This document shows, piece after piece, positions 26,123 to 36,688 of a stretch of 64,000 nucleotides of DNA. The notes below the pieces were generated by a model. It saw only the letters and a list, made by a program, of their open reading frames with translations. It did no database searches and had not been told where the DNA came from. The translations under genes and the position numbers were made by a program. The first letter of the stretch is position 1; each line of letters opens with the position of its first letter. Source of the DNA: Pseudomonas sp. WN033 (GTDB taxonomy: Bacteria > Pseudomonadota > Gammaproteobacteria > Pseudomonadales > Pseudomonadaceae); NCBI GenBank assembly GCA_002287035.1, contig NSKG01000005.1, forward strand, positions 62,001 through 126,000, given 5' to 3'.

Positions 26123-26587
26123 TTACATGGGGAATGACTGCCTCAAATCACTCAGCCGAGAGCGTAAATCCCGCATGGTAAGCAATAGATCCTTGAGTTG
26201 AGCAATTGAATAGCGAGTCTCGGTTTGCTCTGGCGAAGTTGGCAACCCAACAACATTTGCTACCTGTTGCTGTTGCGGGATAAAGCCCCAACGACCATGA
26301 AAGAGCTCATTGCGAAGCGAGCGGACTGCATGAGCATCGGATAACCAAAATTTGTAAATATCTGCTGCCGGGGTGTCCATATATTTTTCGTTTACCAGCT
26401 TTTCCAAAAGATGCAATCTCTTATTGAAATTTGAGTCGTTAAGCTTTTTAGTCAGCCTATCTAGGTTTTGACCATCATTGGACCACACCAAAAACAAACC
26501 AAGCTCCATGTCTAAGCGAGAATACTCAAATAGCATGTAGCCAAGAGTGGTTGCAGCTTCTTTTTCAATTTCATCTTTCACAACCAT
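26123..26587 (-). CDS. HEPN-like cassette protein
   Basis: A 154-residue, mostly helical protein. Residues 92-97 read RNELFH, the R-x4-H pattern of HEPN ribonucleases, within LRNELFHGRW; the Glu and Tyr/Leu-rich helix near residues 12-34 fits the first HEPN helix. HEPN proteins are frequent toxins or effectors in toxin-antitoxin and abortive infection systems. No antitoxin partner is visible in this cassette, so the protein may be non-toxic or act alone. The stop codon lies 4 bases from attC site 1. The name is an inference from one motif; a plain hypothetical protein is the safe alternative. Confidence 0.65.
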   Translation of the reverse strand: MVVKDEIEKEAATTLGYMLFEYSRLDMELGLFLVWSNDGQNLDRLTKKLNDSNFNKRLHLLEKLVNEKYMDTPAADIYKFWLSDAHAVRSLRNELFHGRWGFIPQQQQVANVVGLPTSPEQTETRYSIAQLKDLLLTMRDLRSRLSDLRQSFPM

Positions 26588-26617: not shown

Positions 26618-26709
26618 CGCTAACGCCCGGCATTGGGGCGGACTGTAGCCGCGCAGCGGCGGAAAGGCCGTCCCAGCGCCGAAGGCGCGACAACAGCCGA
26701 TTGTTAAGT
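26618..26709 (-). other. attC site 2
   Basis: On minus: ACTTAACAATCGGCTG (26709 downward) to GCCGGGCGTTAGCG (ending 26618), about 92 bases with a GC-rich folded middle. It terminates the cassette of the 100-residue membrane-anchored protein. Confidence 0.85.
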
Positions 26710-27110: not shown

Positions 27111-27482
27111 TTATTGGTTGTTTTCAGAAGTTATTGATTCGGCTTCCTTCTTCACGAAGTCATCAAATTCTTGTGAAATCTCAGCTGCTCGTTCTGTTAA
27201 TTCTTTGTGTGTTTTATTTATCTCATCCCAGTCTATGTCTGGGTGAGCGTCACCTAGTTTTAATAGAGCCGTTGCTTGCTCGAAGGAACATTCCCGATGT
27301 TGCATGACAGCCATTGCAAGAGCTGTCCAGTAACTATGTAGAGACATCTTTTGGAGGCCAGTTGTCCGCATGCTGGAAATTGAAACTATGCTAGAGGCTC
27401 CTCTTAGTGCTGCGGATTTCCCTCTGTAAGCAAATGCCAGCCATATTAAGGCTATGGTTAGTACGAGAATAGTTAATTCCAT
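27111..27482 (-). CDS. Membrane-anchored cassette protein of unknown function
   Basis: A 123-residue protein with one N-terminal membrane helix (residues 3-18, LTILVLTIALIWLAFA) and a cytoplasmic part that ends in an acidic helical stretch (KTHKELTERAAEISQEF, then DDFVKKEAES). AAGGAAAACAGATT precedes the ATG at 27482. Its stop lies 5 bases from attC site 3. The cassette's left border is the core of attC site 4 at 27525. I do not recognise the family; the middle (SYWTALAMAVMQHRECSFEQATALL) may form a small helical domain. Confidence 0.68.
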   Translation of the reverse strand: MELTILVLTIALIWLAFAYRGKSAALRGASSIVSISSMRTTGLQKMSLHSYWTALAMAVMQHRECSFEQATALLKLGDAHPDIDWDEINKTHKELTERAAEISQEFDDFVKKEAESITSENNQ

Positions 27483-27524: not shown

Positions 27525-27596
27525 ACATAACGATCAAGCTCACCGGCGGCAATGGAGCGCAGCGGAATTGCCGTCCGGTGCAGCGCCTTGTTAGCT
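27525..27596 (-). other. attC site 4 (end of the 7-kb cassette)
   Basis: On minus: AGCTAACAAGGCGCTGCACC (27596 downward) to GAGCTTGATCGTTATGT (27525). The middle pairs GGCAATTCCGCT with AGCGGAATTGCC-like sequence. It is the only attC between 27.5 and 34.49 kb, so the five genes 27623-34465 form one cassette. Confidence 0.88.
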
Positions 27597-27622
27597 GCTT
27601 TTTTAATCGTGAAGTGTATCGT

Positions 27623-28015
27623 CTAAATCTTGCTCTCCAAATATTCCTTTAAACCTTCGAAGCTCGCGCCTTTCTTTCCATTTTGCCATTCGTATACTTC
27701 GCCATCCGGCTGCTGCAATATTAACAGCCCTTCAATACCAGTATTTTCCAGAACTATAGATCCTTTTGGGAAGGACTTGTTCCTTTGTGCTTCTTTCAGC
27801 GTGACGCTAACAACATTTGCATAACCATCAATATTAAGTCCCGTTAGCTCTGTTGAGCCAAAGGAAATTGCACCAAACATTAATAAATATTCCCTGTAAT
27901 CCTCAGGGAAGCTCAAATTGAGTTGCCTTTCAGCCTCAGCAATAAGCTCCTCGGGAGCACCTTTTGTCTTGTACAGCTTAAATTTTTCTTCAATTTTTTT
28001 GATAGTATTAAGCAT
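27623..28015 (-). CDS. SUKH-type (SMI1/KNR4) protein, probable immunity protein
   Basis: A 130-residue protein from the ATG at 28015, preceded by AAGGAG at good distance; the frame extends upstream to 28075 without a site. The pattern fits SMI1/KNR4 (SUKH) proteins: an N-terminal helix (NTIKKIEEKFKL), then LSFPEDYREYLLMFGAISF (about residues 34-52), and the late YEWQNGKKGASFEGLKEYL. SUKH proteins are the commonest immunity proteins of bacterial nuclease toxins. The start overlaps the end of the LHH nuclease gene by eight bases, so I infer it neutralises that nuclease. It is the last gene of the cassette operon. Confidence 0.87.
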   Translation of the reverse strand: MLNTIKKIEEKFKLYKTKGAPEELIAEAERQLNLSFPEDYREYLLMFGAISFGSTELTGLNIDGYANVVSVTLKEAQRNKSFPKGSIVLENTGIEGLLILQQPDGEVYEWQNGKKGASFEGLKEYLESKI

Positions 28016-28688
28016 TTTGAACTCCTTCGCCTGCTCTTTCTTTCCAATGATTGCTTCGTTCTCCATTGAATGCAACTCTATCTATTTCTGATTCCTTTTG
28101 GGTATCGTGCAATACCGAATAATTTTCTTTTCCTCTATGCTCATCAGGAGTTAGCTCCGCAAGCGGACCATCGCTTTTTTGCCCAATATGATGTAACTCA
28201 ATGGTATCACCTTCTTTGTTGATCGGCGAAAGTCCTGCCTCTGCTCTTTCTTTGTTAGTGCGCCCCATTGAATCCTTTTGATCCCAGTCAATATCGCTTC
28301 TAACCAAACATTTTCTGCCGTTAATCTCCACTTCTTGAAGTCCCGCATCTCTATAAATTCTATATTCTTCGATAGAGCCAATGGCGTCAATTATCTCATC
28401 AGACCAACCGGTTTCATTCTTAATTTGTTGCTTTTCTTCTTCTGAGAGCCCTCTGTTTTCCTCGCTGTTATCACCTTCTTCGGTTTCTGATGGTGTCATA
28501 TTATCCGTTTCAGTAAATGACATGGTCTCGTTTTGAGCCTTCAGTCGTTCAAGCGAAGTGTTTTCAATTATCTCCATGGAAGATCTGAGAGGGGATGACT
28601 CCTTAAAGCTTTTGGCCGCTACTTCCTTGAAAGCGTCTTTTATTGACTCCACCCCTTTGGAGGCAATTGCACTAAGTTGTTCAAGCAT
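28008..28688 (-). CDS. LHH-type (HNH/ENDO VII superfamily) nuclease, probable toxin
   Basis: A 226-residue protein. Residues 1-80 are helical then acidic and low-complexity. From about residue 80 there is the pretoxin-nuclease pattern LSEEEKQQIKNETGWSDEII. RKCLVRSDIDWDQKDSMGRTN follows, and then the catalytic LHH at residues 165-167 (ELHHIGQKSDGPLAEL). His184, His194 and His214 are further metal-ligand candidates. This arrangement is that of LHH nuclease toxins usually found at the C-terminus of large polymorphic toxins. Here it is a free-standing gene with no secretion domain, overlapping the ATPase gene upstream (8 bases) and the SUKH gene downstream. It probably cuts DNA or RNA when unleashed. 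Confidence 0.86.
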   Translation of the reverse strand: MLEQLSAIASKGVESIKDAFKEVAAKSFKESSPLRSSMEIIENTSLERLKAQNETMSFTETDNMTPSETEEGDNSEENRGLSEEEKQQIKNETGWSDEIIDAIGSIEEYRIYRDAGLQEVEINGRKCLVRSDIDWDQKDSMGRTNKERAEAGLSPINKEGDTIELHHIGQKSDGPLAELTPDEHRGKENYSVLHDTQKESEIDRVAFNGERSNHWKERAGEGVQNA

Positions 28689-31600
28689 GGGCGTCCCTCA
28701 TATTGTTTAAAATATTACGCGCTATATTCCGTGTCAGGTCATTATCCATGCATAACAAAAATGAGGAAACTGCACCTTCAACTTCTTCCTGATTAAATTT
28801 AAGATCGTTCTTGTACAAGTGCTGAATAGTCAGATTGGCAATAATGTCGTTTATATAATCACCCGCAACAAATGGCTGCCATAGCAGATTCAAGCTGCCG
28901 ACCAATCGATCTCTACATTCCTTAGTAGGTTTACTTATTGCACTACTAAATATTGCTTTTAAGTCATTCGGCATGGCATTTCTCCGAGCGTAAATGCCCT
29001 TATTTAATAACACCATAACCTGCAAACTGAAGTAATCCTGCAAAAACAAATTATCAACCTTACATTGCACATCACGTACAGTTAACAATTTATTCAATTC
29101 GTTATGAGCTACTCCAATGAGCTGGTTTAAGTCTTCAACTTGTATTGTTAAGAGTGAATTGAAAAATCTGATACACAGCTCTCGCCCCGCGTCGCCAAGC
29201 CATGCATCTATCTGATAGGCCTGATAACTGTGCAAGGATTTATAATTCAACGATGTCATTAACCTTTTGACCTTGTCATCGCTAATAGCATGAGAGTCCA
29301 CATCGCTTAAAACCGAACACTCTACAGGTCTTCCCATTCCTTCCTTGTGGCAAAGGGCATGACCGGTTTTTAACCTGTTAAGGTAGAGTGCATCATAATC
29401 ATCTATGCTAAGAGACCCCGCAAGAAGAGATTGATCGTCTTTTGATACGAGACGATGAACAATTTTGGTGTTTGAATTTTTGATTACATCCGGTGAAATC
29501 TTTGATGGGATTTGTTCAACAACTGCAACTCCCTGCCCCAACGAGCGCATTTCAGCAAGAATGTTACAAAACACTTCAACAGCTTTTCCTTTAGGATTGC
29601 CCATCATCTCACTTGACCGCTCAGTTTCAACATTTTTAAGTAGCCGATGAGCCTCTTCAATAACCATGAAATGCCGTAATCCTTTATTTCCCATTCCTGG
29701 GTTTACTGCCGGATTTTCTTTCTGTCTATATTCACTGATTAGGACAAGGACTAGACCAACAAAAAATGCCTTGTCATCGTCATCAGCCAAACTCTCCATT
29801 TCAAGAATAGTGTTTTTATCTAAGAGCTTGTCCAATGCAAAAAAGTCATGAGTGTTGAACATTAGCCCTTTGGCTCCAACACAAAGGCTCTCAAGGCGGA
29901 CAATGATGGCTGTGCGGATATTATCCCGCAGCTCACCTTTATAATCGAGTTCCGTCTTAATATAGCGGTCCACTTCATCTTTAAGGTCGGTCAGTGTGGG
30001 AAAGCAGTAATAGTGCTCATCAAACTGATATCGGCCCCCATCATAATCCCCATTCTTATCTGTAAAATTAGGGTGGGTGCCTAAAGTCAGGTCCCATCCT
30101 TTCTTTATATATATGGCATGAAGGCATTTTTCGACGATGCTGGGCATTGGGCCATAAAGCGAGAAACTTGCATTAAAGATGGCCTTCAAGTAATCAATAT
30201 GTTCAAGGGGATGCACTCCTTCCTGAATATAGAAGGGGTTGAACCTAATCGGGCTGACAGTTGCATCTCCAATTGTGAATATATTTAAGTTGTCCTTAAA
30301 TACTGCATTAGCCAAAAGCTGCCGGTAATCACGTTTTGCCGACTCCAATACCAAGAAGGGAGTTCCTTCTTTTTGTACAAGATCTTTGAGGATATGCTTA
30401 ACCGTAGTTGTTTTTCCGCTACCCGTTAAACCACAAACAAAAAGATGCTTGTTCAGATCGTTTTTAGATAGATACAGCTTCGTGTCGCGAATCGGGTTTC
30501 CGTGATCTGCAATAGAGCCTAAGATCATTTCAGACTTGCTGCCTATATCTGACAGAGCCAATGTAGGCATTTTCTGTATCTCATATCCGGGAATGGATTC
30601 CACGGGCGGAGAGGAAACTAAAGATAATTCTTCGCTGGTGATATATGAAGCCAGTGACTTTGGAAAAAGAGAGTTCGACGAACTGACTTTAGGAATAAAA
30701 AGAACTTTTTCCTCAAGTGAATCCAAATATATACGTGGGGGAGGTAGCAATTTCCCATTTGGCTTTGATAGTTCACCTGCAAATGTTCCAGCAAGAATAT
30801 CGCTTGATATTTTATCTTGTGTGGCGAAAGTAATTGATGTTTCCCAGTAGCCAGAGCCGAATCCTTGTATCATTCGCTCAATGTATTGATCAGCAATTTT
30901 TTCCAATTCCACGGCATATCCATTCTGCTGCTCAATGGATATTGAACGGGATTGGTTTTCTGAAGAAGTTTCTGTTTTCCCCTTGGATGTACTTTCTGTT
31001 TCTGTCTTTGACCAGTTGTGAGAATAGGTTCCACCGCCACCGACGATACCAATTGGTGTCGGAAAACCTATTCCGGCAGTTGCTCCAACGCTATGCCCAC
31101 TTGTTTTCGAACTCCCCGTTGTTGCTGTTTCAGTTTCGGATACAGACGTTCCATATCCTTTTTGTTCTCCAATCGTCTGTTTGGTTAATACATGCAAGCG
31201 ATCTCTAAGCTGAACCAGCTCACTGAATGAGTGTTGTTTTTCTTCTTCAGATACTGGCCTGGAAATGACAGCAAGTAAATAGTCTCTTCCATAAAGGCTA
31301 CGAGCTACAGATGATAAATTGAATTTTTGCTTACCATCCTCATTTTTAAGTATCGGAACGCCGGTTACCATTCCGCCATATATGCACCCATCAGCAAGAG
31401 ACGAAATATTTACAGCTTCTTCAAGGTTGATTTTTTTGCCCGGCAAAAGGCCGTTTACAATTGACTCGAATAACTCAGGTCTATTTTCTGAGGCAGAGTC
31501 ACTTTTAAAACCAAGAAAAACACTACTCCTGCCATTTTTGCAGCTAAGAGCAAGGAGAACCGATAGTCCAGAATGACTGGCGGCAGCCAGAATGTTTTGG

Positions 31601-31824
31601 AATCGTTCATTGATGAAGTTAGGAATATCGTCGCAATCTGAATTAACGGATATCTCATTTAGCGGAAACATGTAATAGCTGTCCAAATAGCTCTTTGGAT
31701 TCTGCTCTGTTTGCACTTTCAATATGTCTGCTCTGCCCGACTGCCACCAAGGGACAAGCTTTTGGGATGCTTCAATAATGGTTCTGCTATTTATTTCATC
31801 AGCAGAAAGGGCTATATCGTTCAT
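28681..31824 (-). CDS. Large HerA/DUF87-type ATPase (1047 residues)
   Basis: The first 220 residues are a domain I do not recognise. Residues about 225-310 are very rich in Ser, Thr and Gly (TSVSETETATTGSSKTSGHS, then VGGGGTYSHNW). The P-loop ATPase spans roughly 440-850. Walker A is CGLTGSGKTTTVK near residue 468 and Walker B with catalytic Glu is MVIEEAHRLL near 720. A glutamine sensor region QIPSKISPDVIKNSNTKIVHR follows, which is typical of HerA, DUF87 and VirB4-like hexameric motors. The last 190 residues form a helical C-terminal domain. HerA proteins in defence systems are usually about 600 residues, so this one is much longer. The start overlaps the preceding stop as TAATG. Confidence 0.85.
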   Translation of the reverse strand: MNDIALSADEINSRTIIEASQKLVPWWQSGRADILKVQTEQNPKSYLDSYYMFPLNEISVNSDCDDIPNFINERFQNILAAASHSGLSVLLALSCKNGRSSVFLGFKSDSASENRPELFESIVNGLLPGKKINLEEAVNISSLADGCIYGGMVTGVPILKNEDGKQKFNLSSVARSLYGRDYLLAVISRPVSEEEKQHSFSELVQLRDRLHVLTKQTIGEQKGYGTSVSETETATTGSSKTSGHSVGATAGIGFPTPIGIVGGGGTYSHNWSKTETESTSKGKTETSSENQSRSISIEQQNGYAVELEKIADQYIERMIQGFGSGYWETSITFATQDKISSDILAGTFAGELSKPNGKLLPPPRIYLDSLEEKVLFIPKVSSSNSLFPKSLASYITSEELSLVSSPPVESIPGYEIQKMPTLALSDIGSKSEMILGSIADHGNPIRDTKLYLSKNDLNKHLFVCGLTGSGKTTTVKHILKDLVQKEGTPFLVLESAKRDYRQLLANAVFKDNLNIFTIGDATVSPIRFNPFYIQEGVHPLEHIDYLKAIFNASFSLYGPMPSIVEKCLHAIYIKKGWDLTLGTHPNFTDKNGDYDGGRYQFDEHYYCFPTLTDLKDEVDRYIKTELDYKGELRDNIRTAIIVRLESLCVGAKGLMFNTHDFFALDKLLDKNTILEMESLADDDDKAFFVGLVLVLISEYRQKENPAVNPGMGNKGLRHFMVIEEAHRLLKNVETERSSEMMGNPKGKAVEVFCNILAEMRSLGQGVAVVEQIPSKISPDVIKNSNTKIVHRLVSKDDQSLLAGSLSIDDYDALYLNRLKTGHALCHKEGMGRPVECSVLSDVDSHAISDDKVKRLMTSLNYKSLHSYQAYQIDAWLGDAGRELCIRFFNSLLTIQVEDLNQLIGVAHNELNKLLTVRDVQCKVDNLFLQDYFSLQVMVLLNKGIYARRNAMPNDLKAIFSSAISKPTKECRDRLVGSLNLLWQPFVAGDYINDIIANLTIQHLYKNDLKFNQEEVEGAVSSFLLCMDNDLTRNIARNILNNMRDAHA

Positions 31825-32477
31825 TATTTCCCCTCCGCTTCAAAACCATTATCCGAGCAAAACTTGTGAAAATCATCATTAAAGCTTTTTTCCACTTTAG
31901 ACAGCCATGCCAATACTTGCTCTTGAGATTCTTTCAAATACTCATCAATGTCTAATTTTGTAATCTCACGAGCTTTGGGAGAGGCTTTGTCAAAGGCGAG
32001 CTTGAATGCAAAAACGGAAAGAAGGACGGTAACGATACCAGCAACAATGGATCCTACAATACTAGGAGCCAAGGCAATAGTAATGCCCGTTCCGACAACA
32101 AACGTAATACCTGACGCTATTAAGCCTTGTGTCAACCTGGGGTCCGATGTGTACTTTACGACATCCGGTTCCAGAGAAAGCTTGTTCTCCAGCTGTATCG
32201 ACCATTCGTGAATTCGTTTTCGGAAATCTGCATCAAAAAAGGCATTTTGCAATTTTACATCGCCGCTCTCAATTTTTTTACGAGCATCTTCCATCAAATA
32301 ATTCAGCAGTGTATCCAGAAGAACTTCCGACTTATAAATAACCTCTTTGGGAACATGTGTCTGCAAGAACTGTTTGGTTTCAGACACATTAAAATCGGCA
32401 TTAAAATGGGTCTGCAGCGACTCCTTGAGACTTGAAAACTCATCAGTGACATCAAGTTTAATTTTTTGGCTAATCAT
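31824..32477 (-). CDS. Two-helix membrane protein partnered with the dynamin-like GTPase
   Basis: A 217-residue protein from the ATG at 32477, which overlaps the dynamin stop as ATGA and has GGAGGATCTAAT upstream. Residues 1-110 are amphipathic helices. Two adjacent hydrophobic segments follow at about 118-138 and 142-160 (GLIASGITFVVGTGITIAL and SIVGSIVAGIVTVLLSVFAF), and then a charged helical tail. It has no recognised family. The overlap with the GTPase gene suggests both proteins act together at the membrane, in the way that many bacterial dynamin-like proteins have paired partners. Its stop TAA shares bases with the ATPase start. Confidence 0.75.
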   Translation of the reverse strand: MISQKIKLDVTDEFSSLKESLQTHFNADFNVSETKQFLQTHVPKEVIYKSEVLLDTLLNYLMEDARKKIESGDVKLQNAFFDADFRKRIHEWSIQLENKLSLEPDVVKYTSDPRLTQGLIASGITFVVGTGITIALAPSIVGSIVAGIVTVLLSVFAFKLAFDKASPKAREITKLDIDEYLKESQEQVLAWLSKVEKSFNDDFHKFCSDNGFEAEGK

Positions 32478-34465
32478 ATTAGATCCTCCAACACTTCGAT
32501 GCATCGTGACTTCTCCGGCTGAATGGCCTTTTTTTTTCCGTTCAACTCATCAATTTCGGAAATTATCTCAGCATTTGATTGTTTTTTACTCTTCTCTTTT
32601 TCAAGAGCTTGCTTTCTGTCGCCAATAACCGACCTCATCTCTTTTTCAAAAAGATCTAGATAATTATTTAGAACCTCTTTTGACTTGTTTGGCAGGTCAT
32701 TGACTATTTTGTAAAACTCCTCATTACACTTCGTTTTGTACTCGCCGAGGAATTTTTCGCTATCAAACACCTTTTTTGTCCCAGCATATCGCGTATGCTT
32801 TGTTTCAACCAGCCAAAGGGTATACCAGTGTCTTTCGTAATAGGTTTCATACTGGTCTTCTTCTTTATACGCACTTTTTTTTGCTTTTTGCTCCAAAGCC
32901 TTCAGGTCAACTTTTGGAATCGAAATCTGGTGTTCAGCACTAACAGCTTTACCTATTTTCTCGAGAGTATCACCGAGCTTTTGTGTCAACTCTTTTGAAA
33001 ACTCATCTACTTTTTCCTGAACCGCATCCAGTCCATCTACCGTATTTTTTCGTGTGCTTTCTATGCTATCACTTCCTGTTATGAGCTCTGGATACTTCAC
33101 TTTAAGGGAATCTATATCTTGCTGCCACGACGAGTGTCGTCCCGAGTAGTTGACTTTTAATTCTTCCTTGGTTTGCTTCGTAAGTAACTCATATTTCTCA
33201 AGAGCCTTGTTTATACGGTTTATTTCTTCTTCAAACTCCTGTGGATTTCTCTTTTTCTTCTCCAGCAGGTCAGCACTCTCTGCATATTGAATTTCCTGCT
33301 CCGCATACCCCATTTTTATCTGCTCCAAAATCTCTTGAAGCTGAAGGTTGGGCGCTTTCATGGAAAATTCATCAATTGCATGAAACATCTTTTCAAACCG
33401 AGAGCCTCTTTCTAACTGAGTAGATAAATCAGTCCCTTCACGTTTTGCTTTTTTTTCAAATTTAGCTAGAAAGTCTTCTTTTTGCTCTGAGTTTTTTTCG
33501 ATCTCCTCTTGGCTTTTTCCGCCATTTAACTCTGTCAAAATTATCTGAGCCAAGCTATCGACAACCAAAATGCGATTTTCAGGAATGATGTCTTTATATA
33601 GGCGTCCAGCTTCTGCATGCAGGCGCTCAACTTCATCATTGGAGTATAATCCTGCATGAGTTAACACCAGAAAAAGCGTTTCTTTGCTGCGATTTGATAT
33701 AACCGAGTTAACAAACTTTCTAAATGATTCCGACTCAATTGGTTTGATCGGATGCACAAACAGAATTGCATTGGCTTCTTCAAAGAAACGAAATGATACG
33801 TCCTGAACTCCTCCAGTCGCATTGACACCTGGACTGTCAACAATGCGAAGCTCATCAAATTCCCACTTCAATGGATAGCCAAACTCTATTTCAACCGGAA
33901 TTTTATCCGTTGTTCTTTCTGAAATATACTGAGTAACAACATCCTGTTTCCCCTGAAGATGTTCACCAGACTGCTGTTCAAGCTGCTTTATAAAAGTATC
34001 ATTCACGGCTAAATTGCCGTCACTTTCAATGATGCAATCATCTATTAACGTTGTCGGTATATGACGGTACTCGTCATGAATTTTACATATTTCATGCAGC
34101 CGTTCATTTGCTTCATCAATATCCGGAGTTGACAGGTCATCATATAGGCTTTCTTCGTGTCCATCGGCAAATTTAACCTTCAAAAATGAGGTGTCAGACT
34201 TGAATATTTCAACAATTGCGCTTGATGCTTGAAGCACATCAGATGGAAGAATTTCTGCCCCGAGTAAGGCGTTAAGAAAGGTCGATTTCCCCGCCTTCAC
34301 TTCCCCCGCTACGGCCAAAGTGAACTTGCCATTTTTTAATGACCTCACCCGGCTTTCAAGAAATTTGGCATCTACACCATCATCAGTGTTTCCCCTTTTT
34401 TCTAGATACCTGTGAAATAGGTCAATCACATTAAATTTATGAGCCTTGTATTGCTTACCTATCAT
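32474..34465 (-). CDS. Dynamin-like GTPase
   Basis: A 663-residue large GTPase. G1 is GEVKAGKSTFLNALLG (about residues 54-69), G2 may be the Thr near residue 118, G3 is DSPG near 211, and G4 is the non-standard LTHAGL near 262. Residues about 320-540 are long charged helices. There is no clear membrane paddle or transmembrane helix, so the downstream two-helix protein may supply membrane binding. Bacterial dynamins of this type remodel membranes, and some protect against phage or drive vesicle release. AAGGAATACGAA precedes the ATG, only about 29 bases inside the cassette border at 34494. There is therefore no room for its own promoter. It is the first gene of the operon. Confidence 0.9.
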   Translation of the reverse strand: MIGKQYKAHKFNVIDLFHRYLEKRGNTDDGVDAKFLESRVRSLKNGKFTLAVAGEVKAGKSTFLNALLGAEILPSDVLQASSAIVEIFKSDTSFLKVKFADGHEESLYDDLSTPDIDEANERLHEICKIHDEYRHIPTTLIDDCIIESDGNLAVNDTFIKQLEQQSGEHLQGKQDVVTQYISERTTDKIPVEIEFGYPLKWEFDELRIVDSPGVNATGGVQDVSFRFFEEANAILFVHPIKPIESESFRKFVNSVISNRSKETLFLVLTHAGLYSNDEVERLHAEAGRLYKDIIPENRILVVDSLAQIILTELNGGKSQEEIEKNSEQKEDFLAKFEKKAKREGTDLSTQLERGSRFEKMFHAIDEFSMKAPNLQLQEILEQIKMGYAEQEIQYAESADLLEKKKRNPQEFEEEINRINKALEKYELLTKQTKEELKVNYSGRHSSWQQDIDSLKVKYPELITGSDSIESTRKNTVDGLDAVQEKVDEFSKELTQKLGDTLEKIGKAVSAEHQISIPKVDLKALEQKAKKSAYKEEDQYETYYERHWYTLWLVETKHTRYAGTKKVFDSEKFLGEYKTKCNEEFYKIVNDLPNKSKEVLNNYLDLFEKEMRSVIGDRKQALEKEKSKKQSNAEIISEIDELNGKKKAIQPEKSRCIEVLEDLI

Positions 34466-34488
34466 TTCGTATTCCTTTGTCTTTTTGC

Positions 34489-34566
34489 AGCTAACGCCCG
34501 CAATAAACGGCGTGAGGAACGAGCGTCCGGCGACCGAAGGGAGCGAATTTAATTGCTTTGTTAGAA
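34489..34566 (-). other. attC site 5 (start border of the 7-kb cassette)
   Basis: On minus: TTCTAACAAAGCAATTAAAT (34566 downward) to ATTGCGGGCGTTAGCT (34489), with CCGGACGCTCG-type inner arms. It differs from attC site 6 by very few bases across 78, mostly one G/C change near the centre and at the outer core. Confidence 0.92.
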
Positions 34567-34570
34567 GCCA

Positions 34571-35521
34571 TTAGCCACCCACCTTGTTGTACGCCATAGC
34601 AATAAACTCTTTAACTTGCTCAAACTCAGTTTCAGATGACACGGTGAATTCAACATCGCCGGTACCATAATGACCGATTGAGGTAACATCTCGGTAGTTT
34701 GGTGTACCATCAGGAATATCCGAAGGTTTCAGTTTGAGGAACAGTTTTATGTTCTTGCCTTTGACTTCCAAGCACGCAATATTCTGGGAGATTTTATAGG
34801 CGACATAAAACTTTTTCGGCACTTCTTCAATAGACTCATCCAAGCCGAGAATGAACTCACGGATCGTTGCTGTTAACTCCCGAATATCCTCACTTTTGCC
34901 TTCAAGTCTTTCATCAAATGTATAGGTCGCGGTAGCGCGAGTAAGGGCTGCTTTCTTACCTGCTTCGACCATAACAGGGTTTTTGTATCCGTTTTCCGTT
35001 GGCATGGTCGTGACAGAGGAAGCCGCTGACCTTGAAGAGTGGAAAACCTCCTCAAGATATATTGAGTCGTTGGAGAACAAGCGATATTTCCATAATTCGA
35101 TATTTGCACCCATGACTTGCACAGCGTGCAAGTCATACTTTTTATAGTTGGGAGCTATACAGATCACCCTGACATCTGACCAATCAACTTTGACACCACT
35201 ACCAAGCCGCTTTTGTACCGCAATCTCGAAATCACCTTTGTGATCTTGAATCCAGTGCAGATAGAAGAGGCTCTGGTTGATAAGCTCAGATGACTCGACT
35301 TTCTTGTATTCGATGATGACAGGATTATCTTCTTCCGACAAAGCAAGGCTATCAATTCGGCCAGCATGCTGGGCGCCTGTTGAGAACTCACTGGCAACAA
35401 ACCGGCAATTGAAAACTGTTTCGAGATTCTTCTCAATCAGCGTTTGCAAATCCTTTTCCAGGGCAAAGTTTTTCTGCTCCACGGCAGACAACTTATCCCC
35501 TGAAATATCAAATATCGGCAC
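34571..35521 (-). CDS. PD-(D/E)XK/DUF5655-type cassette protein, copy 1
   Basis: A 316-residue protein with GTG start at 35521 (GGAG ten bases upstream). Residues 20-110 fit a PD-(D/E)XK nuclease-like fold: Asp57 in GRIDSL and Glu71-x-Lys73 in IIEYKK. The linker around residues 165-215 is Ser/Thr/Ala-rich. The C-terminal 110 residues (FYVAYKISQNIACLEVKGKN, then HYGTGDVEF) match the DUF5655 pattern. Older databases call this group a predicted transport protein, which I think is wrong given the nuclease core. It is 97.8% identical (seven residue changes) to the next cassette's protein. A nuclease or nucleic-acid binding role is inferred. Confidence 0.85.
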   Translation of the reverse strand: MPIFDISGDKLSAVEQKNFALEKDLQTLIEKNLETVFNCRFVASEFSTGAQHAGRIDSLALSEEDNPVIIEYKKVESSELINQSLFYLHWIQDHKGDFEIAVQKRLGSGVKVDWSDVRVICIAPNYKKYDLHAVQVMGANIELWKYRLFSNDSIYLEEVFHSSRSAASSVTTMPTENGYKNPVMVEAGKKAALTRATATYTFDERLEGKSEDIRELTATIREFILGLDESIEEVPKKFYVAYKISQNIACLEVKGKNIKLFLKLKPSDIPDGTPNYRDVTSIGHYGTGDVEFTVSSETEFEQVKEFIAMAYNKVGG

Positions 35522-35549: not shown

Positions 35550-35627
35550 TTCTAACGCCCGCAATAAACGGCGCGAGGAACGAGCGTCCGGCGACCGAAG
35601 GGAGCGAATTTAATTGCTTTGTTAGAA
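35550..35627 (-). other. attC site 6
   Basis: On minus: TTCTAACAAAGCAATTAAAT (35627 downward) to ATTGCGGGCGTTAGAA (35550). Its start lies exactly 1061 bases from attC site 5; gene and attC were duplicated as one unit. Confidence 0.92.
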
Positions 35628-35631
35628 GCCA

Positions 35632-36582
35632 TTAGCCACCGACCTTGTTGTACGCCATGGAAATAAACTCTTTAACTTGCTCAAACTCAGATTCGGATGA
35701 TACGGTGAACTCAACATCACCAGTACCATAATGACCAATTGAAGTTACATCCCGGTAGTTTGGCGTCCCATCAGGGATATCCGAAGGTTTCAGTTTAAGA
35801 AACAGTTTTATGTTCTTACCTTTGACTTCCAAGCAGGCAATATTCTGGGAGATTTTGTAGGCGACATAGAACTTTTTCGGCACTTCTTCAATAGACTCAT
35901 CCAAGCCAAGTATGAACTCACGGATCGTGGCAGTTAACTCCCGAATATCTTCACTTTTGCCGTCAAGTCTTTCATCAAATGTATAGGTCGCAGTGGCGCG
36001 AGTTAGGGCTGCCTTCTTACCTGCCTCGACCATAACAGGGTTTTTGTATCCGTTCTCGGTTGTCATGGTTGCGACAGAGGACGCCGCTGACTTTGAAGAG
36101 TGGAAAACCTCCTCAAGATATATTGAGTCGTTGGAGAACAAGCGATATTTCCACAACTCGATATTTGCACCCATTACTTGCACGGCATGCAAATCATACT
36201 TTTTATAGTTGGGAGCTATACAGATTACCCTGACATCTGACCAATCAACCTTGACACTACTACCAAGCCGCTTTTGTACCGCAATCTCGAAATCACCTTT
36301 GTGATCTTGAATCCAGTGCAGATAGAAGAGGCTCTGGTTGATAAGCTCAGATGACTCGACTTTCTTATATTCGATAATGACGGGATTATCTTCTTCAGAC
36401 AAAGCCAGGCTATCAATTCGACCGGCGTGCTGGGCACCCGTTGAAAATTCGCTGGCAACAAACCGGCAATTGAAAACGGTTTCGAGGTTCTTCTCAATCA
36501 GCGTTTGCAAGTCCTTTTCCAGGGCGAAGTTCTTCTGCTCTACGGCAGATAGCTTATCCCCTGAAATATCGAATATCGGCAC
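35632..36582 (-). CDS. PD-(D/E)XK/DUF5655-type cassette protein, copy 2
   Basis: A 316-residue protein with GTG start, nearly the same as the gene at 34571-35521. The differences I see are G109S, R165K, T172A, P175T, E207D, a Thr-to-Ser in the last strand and an Ala-to-Ser near residue 310 (positions approximate). The catalytic candidates Asp57, Glu71 and Lys73 are kept in both. Copy length and reading frame have no indel, so both are probably functional. Many silent changes exist, which points to an older duplication or to two cassettes captured from a gene family rather than a very recent copying event. Confidence 0.85.
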   Translation of the reverse strand: MPIFDISGDKLSAVEQKNFALEKDLQTLIEKNLETVFNCRFVASEFSTGAQHAGRIDSLALSEEDNPVIIEYKKVESSELINQSLFYLHWIQDHKGDFEIAVQKRLGSSVKVDWSDVRVICIAPNYKKYDLHAVQVMGANIELWKYRLFSNDSIYLEEVFHSSKSAASSVATMTTENGYKNPVMVEAGKKAALTRATATYTFDERLDGKSEDIRELTATIREFILGLDESIEEVPKKFYVAYKISQNIACLEVKGKNIKLFLKLKPSDIPDGTPNYRDVTSIGHYGTGDVEFTVSSESEFEQVKEFISMAYNKVGG

Positions 36583-36610: not shown

Positions 36611-36688
36611 TTCTAACGCCAAGCACAGCGGCGGCCCGTCAGGGACGTCCGGCGGCCACCGGCCGCGTACTGCTGCGCCTTGTTAAGA
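36611..36688 (-). other. attC site 7
   Basis: On minus: TCTTAACAAGGCGCAGCAGT (36688 downward) to GTGCTTGGCGTTAGAA (36611). GCGCAGCAGTACGC pairs imperfectly with the GC-rich opposite arm (CGCCGCTGTGC). The stop codon of the zinc-ribbon gene lies inside the inverse core, as is usual. Confidence 0.88.

Follow-up and report, generated by a model that had tools for sequence, protein, structure and literature searches.

A five-gene cassette of Pseudomonas sp. WN033 suggests an undescribed bacterial conflict system in which a recurring dynamin-HerA engine is combined with differing tagged nuclease toxins

The stretch of Pseudomonas sp. WN033 DNA considered here, referred to as the window (64,000 nucleotides; contig NSKG01000005.1, positions 62,001 to 126,000), contains a cassette of five genes encoding a dynamin-like GTPase, a small protein with two predicted membrane segments, a HerA-type ATPase, a nuclease and its putative immunity protein. 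The recurrence of the first three as an engine found with differing tagged toxins suggests an undescribed bacterial conflict system. As judged from sequence comparisons, the engine is constant, and the tagged nuclease toxin is evidently exchanged together with its matching immunity gene. The genes of the cassette, as well as the two protein segments of greatest relevance, are as follows.

32474..34465, minus strand: dynamin-like GTPase, 663 aa (Dynamin_N in Pfam, E 3e-17)
31824..32477, minus strand: two-transmembrane (2TM) helical protein, 217 aa (two hydrophobic segments; family alignment A3)
28681..31824, minus strand: HerA/VirB4-superfamily ATPase, 1047 aa (DUF87 in Pfam, E 3e-9)
30937..31170, minus strand: putative Ser/Thr-alternating hairpin of the ATPase, residues 219-296 (Ser/Thr periodicity; low-confidence model)
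28008..28688, minus strand: tagged LHH nuclease (the effector), 226 aa (LHH, PF14411, E 1e-23, residues 144-219)
28527..28688, minus strand: N-terminal tag of the effector, residues 1-54 (invariant positions of alignment A7)
27623..28015, minus strand: SUKH immunity protein, 130 aa (SUKH_5 in Pfam, E 8e-19)

Successive genes of this minus-strand operon overlap by 4, 1, 8 and 8 bases, with the GTPase and 2TM genes meeting in a 4-base ATGA overlap, the 2TM and ATPase genes in a 1-base overlap (TAATG), and the ATPase and nuclease genes, like the nuclease and SUKH genes, sharing 8 bases; a purine-rich stretch lies just 5' of all five ATG start codons. The coordinates and overlaps given in a preliminary description of the window were thus reproduced, while its domain assignments (dynamin-like GTPase, two-helix membrane protein, HerA-type ATPase, LHH and SUKH) were borne out by Pfam (Dynamin_N, DUF87, LHH and SUKH_5) and by hydropathy. 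The GTPase contains the motifs GEVKAGKST at position 54 and DSPG at position 210, and its AlphaFold2 model (pLDDT 81) best matches BDLP (2j69; E 1e-15) in the PDB, followed by IniA and SynDLP. The 2TM protein, analyzed by Pfam, PADLOC, family alignment and hydropathy minus its first 6 residues, matched no Pfam family over that family's cut-off. Because hydropathy placed two membrane segments in the 2TM protein and none in the window GTPase, the former may serve as an anchor. The ATPase has a predicted HerA-fold motor with intact Walker motifs; this fold is also VirB4-like and close to that of DndH and of the HerA proteins found in defence and repair complexes. The effector carries the motif ELHHIGQ at position 164, presents no hydrophobic segment by hydropathy (no dedicated signal-peptide program was used) and found no PDB sequence match at E<=0.1.

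Co-occurrence of these genes elsewhere had been set beforehand as a test of the preliminary description, and the genes did recur together. A search of genome contigs with an alignment of the ATPase yielded at least 466 relatives, the best 80 loci of which were kept and are the source of all L-numbered loci cited here. Of the loci L001-L046, 38 extend for 2.5 kb or more upstream of the ATPase, and in 37 of these a GTPase gene lies upstream and on the same strand (L019 being without). An effector gene lies 3' of the ATPase in all 47 loci considered (L001-L047). The 2TM protein was matched by profile in 29 of the 38, to which L039 adds a gene for a two-segment protein recognized by hydropathy. 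The hosts include Pseudomonadota, Bacteroidota, Bacillota, Cloacimonadota, Planctomycetota, Ignavibacteriota, Calditrichota and Fibrobacterota. When 369 genomes of the class were searched separately, the ATPase was found in four and the GTPase in two (E<=1e-20). Both GTPase-bearing genomes contain a close ATPase (100% and 74% identity) side by side with the GTPase, no genome contains the GTPase alone, and no GTPase was found near the distant ATPases (35% and 32%) of the other two. Given that the gene order recurs across phyla and that the GTPase appears only beside close ATPases in the 369 genomes, the arrangement is not one of chance. Within the genus, the set is patchy: of 37 genomes, two match strongly and a third weakly (E 2e-4). 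Among plasmids, 52 records matched, all at less than 60% identity and none spanning 80% of the ATPase. Candidate relatives in viral contigs amounted to 72 pattern matches, none of which was confirmed.

The effectors of the window and of L001-L047, 48 in all, were assigned to classes first by motif, with Pfam agreeing: 28 are LHH nucleases, 12 are colicin-DNase/WHH proteins and 8 gave no nuclease match. LHH with SUKH is the commonest variant seen (28/48) of this widespread family. Seven of the Pfam-negative effectors were read as a putative, unnamed restriction endonuclease-like (REase-like) family, a name that denotes a reading of a D..ExT pattern, since comparison of the domain with PDB sequences gave a single chance-level match (E 0.37). 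The eighth, from L033, was read as PoNe-like on account of the PoNi immunity protein encoded next to it. Apart from nuclease domains and two marginal matches, Pfam detected no recognized export or trafficking domain in the 48 effectors. The type of immunity gene tracks the toxin, with SUKH following 27 of 28 LHH and 9 of 12 WHH effectors, DUF7832-like proteins following 6 of 7 REase-like effectors and PoNi following the PoNe-like one, as sorted by profiles built from the same sequences; behind five of the 48 effectors, no immunity gene was called. Pfam alone, applied to 43 effector neighbours, recognized SUKH in 36, DUF7832 in 4 and PoNi in 1. Start codons of effector and immunity genes were re-picked as those nearest to the end of the preceding gene. 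The earlier proposal that the LHH and SUKH proteins form a toxin-immunity pair is in agreement with this correspondence. As for orphan immunity genes, a search limited to the window SUKH protein revealed none in 57 relatives at E<=1e-10.

What these otherwise differing effectors have in common is the N-terminal tag. In alignment A7, comprising two LHH, one WHH, one REase-like and one HNH effector, 26 of the 27 invariant positions fall within residues 1-54. A profile of LHH-effector tags matched 16 of 20 non-LHH tags at E<=0.01, and the WHH and REase-like tag profiles matched 22 of 36 and 14 of 41, respectively; each matched 0 of 960 shuffled decoys. Tag ends were set by motif, and some WHH tags may contain a little sequence of the next domain. 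The more distant tags diverge in sequence and differ in length, in either direction, from the 54-residue window tag. When residues 1-62 of the window effector were compared with 5.8 billion proteins, 29 candidates were scored and 21 matched, these being 17 LHH proteins, 1 WHH/colicin-DNase protein, 1 HNH protein (PF01844) and 2 proteins without a Pfam match that read as REase-like. No second tagged effector was found in the Pseudomonas sp. WN033 genome at E<=1.

Exchange of the toxin is most readily seen in pairs of related loci. Between the window and Halopseudomonas xiamenensis, the ATPase, GTPase and 2TM proteins are 70, 56 and 63% identical, whereas the effectors are alike only at residues 5-54 (62%) and the immunity proteins are unrelated. 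Likewise, two Tenacibaculum loci (L009 and L010) share 69, 58 and 72% identity in the GTPase, 2TM protein and ATPase, yet their effectors are alike only over residues 1-77 (41%) and their immunity proteins, too, are unrelated. On a tree of the 48 ATPase motors (a quick tree with SH-aLRT support only and long branches for L042 and L047), toxin class changes 14 times. As the minimum possible is 3 and the mean upon shuffling 18.1, with a value as low reached in 1 of 200 shuffles, exchange is frequent but not random.

The ATPase itself contains a long, amphipathic hairpin with a hydrophobic tip, modelled with low confidence as a beta-hairpin, which is probably membrane-inserting. Across 72-73 sequences, Ser/Thr pairs two residues apart are enriched in this region (z +9.9 and +14.6), while adjacent pairs are depleted (z -6.2 and -8.8). 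A GTPase gene lies near 43 of 45 ATPases with the hairpin, as opposed to 0 of 14 without, although the Fisher p of 9e-12 overstates this link, since the hairpin group forms one side of one branch and so amounts to one independent pair.

Several relatives of the ATPase were seen in other arrangements. Actinomycete hairpin ATPases in L064, L067 and L068 are preceded by one or two dynamin-like GTPases (recognized by Pfam in L067 and L068) in a differing arrangement. The hairpin region is much longer, at 291 aa, in the Synergistaceae ATPase of L065 (2151-7503), behind which lie Endonuclease_NS_2 and a YezG-like immunity gene. Small proteins in which an HExxH motif was recognized by eye follow distant ATPases without the hairpin (L052, L056, L060, L069 and L073) or of unassigned hairpin status (L055 and L070); in Pfam, these gave weak peptidase matches for L069 and none for L060. 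They perhaps belong to another system built on the same motor family.

Upstream of the related loci, a WYL regulator reading in the same direction is one of the two closest genes (of at least 150 aa, within 1.5 kb) in 16 of 33 loci. By position, this corresponds to 16 of 41 adjacent genes against 3 of 199 other flanking genes, a contrast (Fisher p 2e-11) that is biased, since four genes from the tested position had served as seed for the WYL profile. Independently, library searches of 128 flanking genes chosen near the system recognized WYL in 20 (PADLOC) or 19 (Pfam). WYL regulators are typical of defence loci. A 2014 paper by Makarova bears a title in this sense. In the two Tenacibaculum loci (L009, 728-15914; L010, 3327-18440), the five genes lie between the methyltransferase (mod) and restriction (res) genes of a type III restriction-modification (R-M) system, followed by an HKD/Snf2 gene. 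The R-M assignment was made by PADLOC for L009 and by 63% and 94% identity to the L009 genes for L010, the restriction and HKD/Snf2 genes behind being 94% identical between the two loci and the methyltransferase in front 63%. In Gelidibacter (L019, 6512-17185), a hairpin ATPase and a WHH toxin, with no GTPase, lie between a type I specificity gene and pAgo, with a DruF-like gene thereafter. Three more flanking genes (in L002, L004 and L013) gave no PADLOC match.

The cassette and its relatives may be best viewed as a modular conflict system, most likely acting in intracellular, abortive-type defence against invaders, a reading in which we place middling confidence. Defence is favoured because of the WYL regulators upstream and the nesting within R-M loci. 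In such a scheme, the GTPase and 2TM protein would hold the engine at the inner membrane, with the nuclease docked on the motor via its tag and kept inactive by the immunity protein. A membrane insult, such as phage DNA entry or conjugation, would trigger GTP- and ATP-driven assembly, whereupon the hairpins would enter the membrane and the motor would strip the toxin from the immunity protein, with the freed toxin then cutting DNA; were host DNA to be cut, the infection would end with sacrifice of the cell. That the engine docks at the membrane and is triggered, that the toxin is released from its immunity protein and that the system acts in defence are what we infer from the sequences. The preliminary description had proposed that a membrane-sensing GTPase and a motor ATPase could release a nuclease held by the SUKH protein; what the present scheme adds is the exchange of toxins behind a conserved tag, the probably membrane-inserting hairpin and the wide distribution of the family. 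Three subjects usually studied separately, namely, bacterial dynamins, polymorphic toxin-immunity pairs and HerA-type motors, are joined in this operon. Should the motor release a tagged toxin upon a membrane cue, the system would amount to a modular trigger that accepts different nucleases by way of a short tag. One family of bacterial dynamins would then gain a concrete role, and one set of integron cassettes of unusually large size would be accounted for. The dynamin DynA of B. subtilis is described as giving phage resistance (PMC8844932).

Several observations weigh against the defence reading. The 2TM profile found no match in 9 of the 38 loci (one of which has the two-segment gene seen by hydropathy) and L019 is without the GTPase, while the Ser/Thr periodicity is not significant in the window hairpin alone (z 0.8 and 1.6). 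The WYL regulator is present in only 16 of 33 loci, and the window cassette is preceded by a DUF5655 gene and its near-copy, with no WYL gene; PADLOC, moreover, names no system. The main doubt is that between defence and export, as the hairpin could serve export and as immunity-paired polymorphic toxins are best known as secreted weapons (PMC3482391). That the cassette encodes a toxin export or injection machine for interbacterial competition, with the tag as export signal, a hairpin-lined pore through which the motor threads the nuclease and an immunity protein that protects the producer, is nonetheless rather unlikely. Such a machine would account for the VirB4-like motor and for a hairpin that is likely membrane-associated, and two papers describe the same pattern of constant trafficking part, variable toxin and immunity gene (PMC3482391, PMC7159879); here, too, a variable C-terminal toxin stands behind a constant N-terminal region. 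Against this, the 25 commonest Pfam families among the 128 flanking genes include no secretion component (109 further families lie outside this list), and the relatives of the window yielded no orphan copy of its immunity protein. The host phyla, in addition, comprise both one-membrane and two-membrane bacteria, and the same parts are common to loci of both. To our knowledge, neither nesting in R-M loci nor WYL regulators are typical of weapons. It is on account of these shared parts, the R-M nesting, the WYL regulators and the lack of orphan immunity copies in the 57 relatives that defence is preferred over export.

An unlikely but bolder notion is that the ATPase acts as a self-contained protein-translocation machine, in which the hairpins of six subunits would form a barrel-like membrane pore on the HerA-type motor, the dynamin-like GTPase would open or remodel the membrane and the tagged nuclease would be threaded through and freed of its immunity protein. 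If true, such a protein-translocating conflict machine would be of a new kind, belonging neither to the known secretion systems nor to the known defence systems. The cassette could also restrict DNA by capture, as do HerA-NurA and HerA-DUF4297, with the motor pumping incoming DNA to the docked nuclease for direct cleavage and the immunity protein merely limiting leakage. The motor fold, near to that of DndH and of HerA in defence and repair complexes, is consistent with this, as is the fact that every toxin class named by Pfam is a nuclease family, but such capture is distinctly unlikely, leaving as it does the GTPase, 2TM protein and hairpin unexplained, though these co-occur (within one clade, as noted above). 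Very unlikely, finally, is a toxin-antitoxin addiction unit that stabilizes the cassette array or an island, with the engine regulating the pair. While the immunity gene lies directly 3' of the toxin in the operon and the cassette is in an array with no integrase over cut-off in the assembly, a 5-kb engine should be needless for such a unit, and both Tenacibaculum copies lie inside an R-M locus and not in an array.

Returning to the preferred reading of a defence system, the gene set was compared with those already named. As the preliminary description had supposed, Pfam, PADLOC and NCBIfam name parts of the cassette only and no system with this set, and no paper with it was among the matches listed from the open PubMed Central (PMC) literature, subscription papers and bioRxiv being outside that scope. 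Polymorphic toxins as described in 2012 (PMC3482391) present the same toxin and immunity families (Tox-LHH, Tox-WHH and Imm-SUKH), a constant N-terminus, a variable C-terminal toxin and an immunity gene downstream. The cassette differs in that its effector bears no known trafficking domain and in that the operon includes a GTPase-2TM-motor engine; the word 'dynamin' appears zero times in the available text of that paper. Unlike SIR2-HerA/Nezha, DUF4297-HerA and HerA-NurA, the cassette combines a tagged toxin and its immunity protein with a hairpin and a dynamin partner. The ATPase fell well below the cut-off of the curated anti-phage HerA families of NCBIfam, scoring 30 bits against HerA_antiphage (cut-off 800); by model number, the scores were 30 bits for NF042943 (cut-off 800) and 25 for NF042944 (cut-off 850). 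In the available texts on HerA/FtsK capture systems and DndH (PMC10853773, PMC12839542), 'dynamin' and 'GTPase' both appear zero times. LeoABC/Eleos is alike in being bacterial dynamin-like, with the GTPase matching PADLOC LeoBC (E 1e-10), the 2TM protein doing so weakly (1e-5) and LeoA being found as a PDB match (E 1e-7). Leo, however, is a dynamin pair (LeoA with LeoBC), for which the part of the source at hand describes no HerA-type motor or immunity gene (PMC4159319), whereas the cassette contains a single GTPase. As for MADS, matches to mad8 were limited to the ATPase (E 2e-15) and the GTPase (E 2e-3), none of the other three genes matching a mad model. VirB4 of type IV secretion shares the motor fold, but Pfam finds no other type IV secretion gene in the cassette, and the hairpin is inserted here.

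The cassette, of about 7.0 kb, has a GC content of about 41%, against about 60% for the genome, and is a member of a short array. Its borders are as follows.

34489..34566, minus strand: upstream border, attC-like site ending the preceding cassette (core pair TTCTAAC..GTTAGCT, 78 bp)
27525..27596, minus strand: downstream border, attC-like site of the five-gene cassette (core pair AGCTAAC..GTTATGT, minimum free energy -17.0)

These sites, called with a relaxed core pattern after a stricter initial pattern gave none, lie where the preliminary description had placed attC sites. By core sequence, the cassette thus has its own attC downstream and that of the previous cassette upstream, with folding being partial at both borders: the outer ends of the 34489 site are unpaired in the DNA fold, while a near-copy at 35550-35627 pairs end to end, and the 27525 site has unpaired outer ends and a strong central stem. 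Further attC-like core pairs were found at 26618-26709, 35550-35627 and 36611-36688. The integron integrase model TIGR02249 had no match over its cut-off in the whole assembly, the best being an 88-aa open frame on another contig (G000 C1:575933-576172; model positions 5-84), which gives the array the look of a cassette cluster lacking its integrase. No direct repeats of 50 nt or longer, and hence no sign of a cassette array, were found at the V. metschnikovii locus. For 46 of the 120 ATPase relatives listed, the longest contig measures 6.7-8.3 kb, near the length of the cassette, perhaps reflecting assembly breaks at attC repeats.

Other genes of the array were also considered. Downstream, a 123-aa cassette gene (27111-27482) gave a marginal N-terminal PspB match (E 0.03, under the cut-off), and a 154-aa cassette gene (26123-26587) contains an RNxxxH-like stretch (RNELFH) that, read by eye, resembles HEPN nucleases. 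Upstream of the five-gene cassette lie two near-identical genes of 316 aa (34571-35521 and 35632-36582), the first being DUF5655 in Pfam, each with an almost identical attC-like site downstream or adjoining. With a 300-nt repeat that is 92% identical, these twin genes are evidently the product of a recent cassette duplication.

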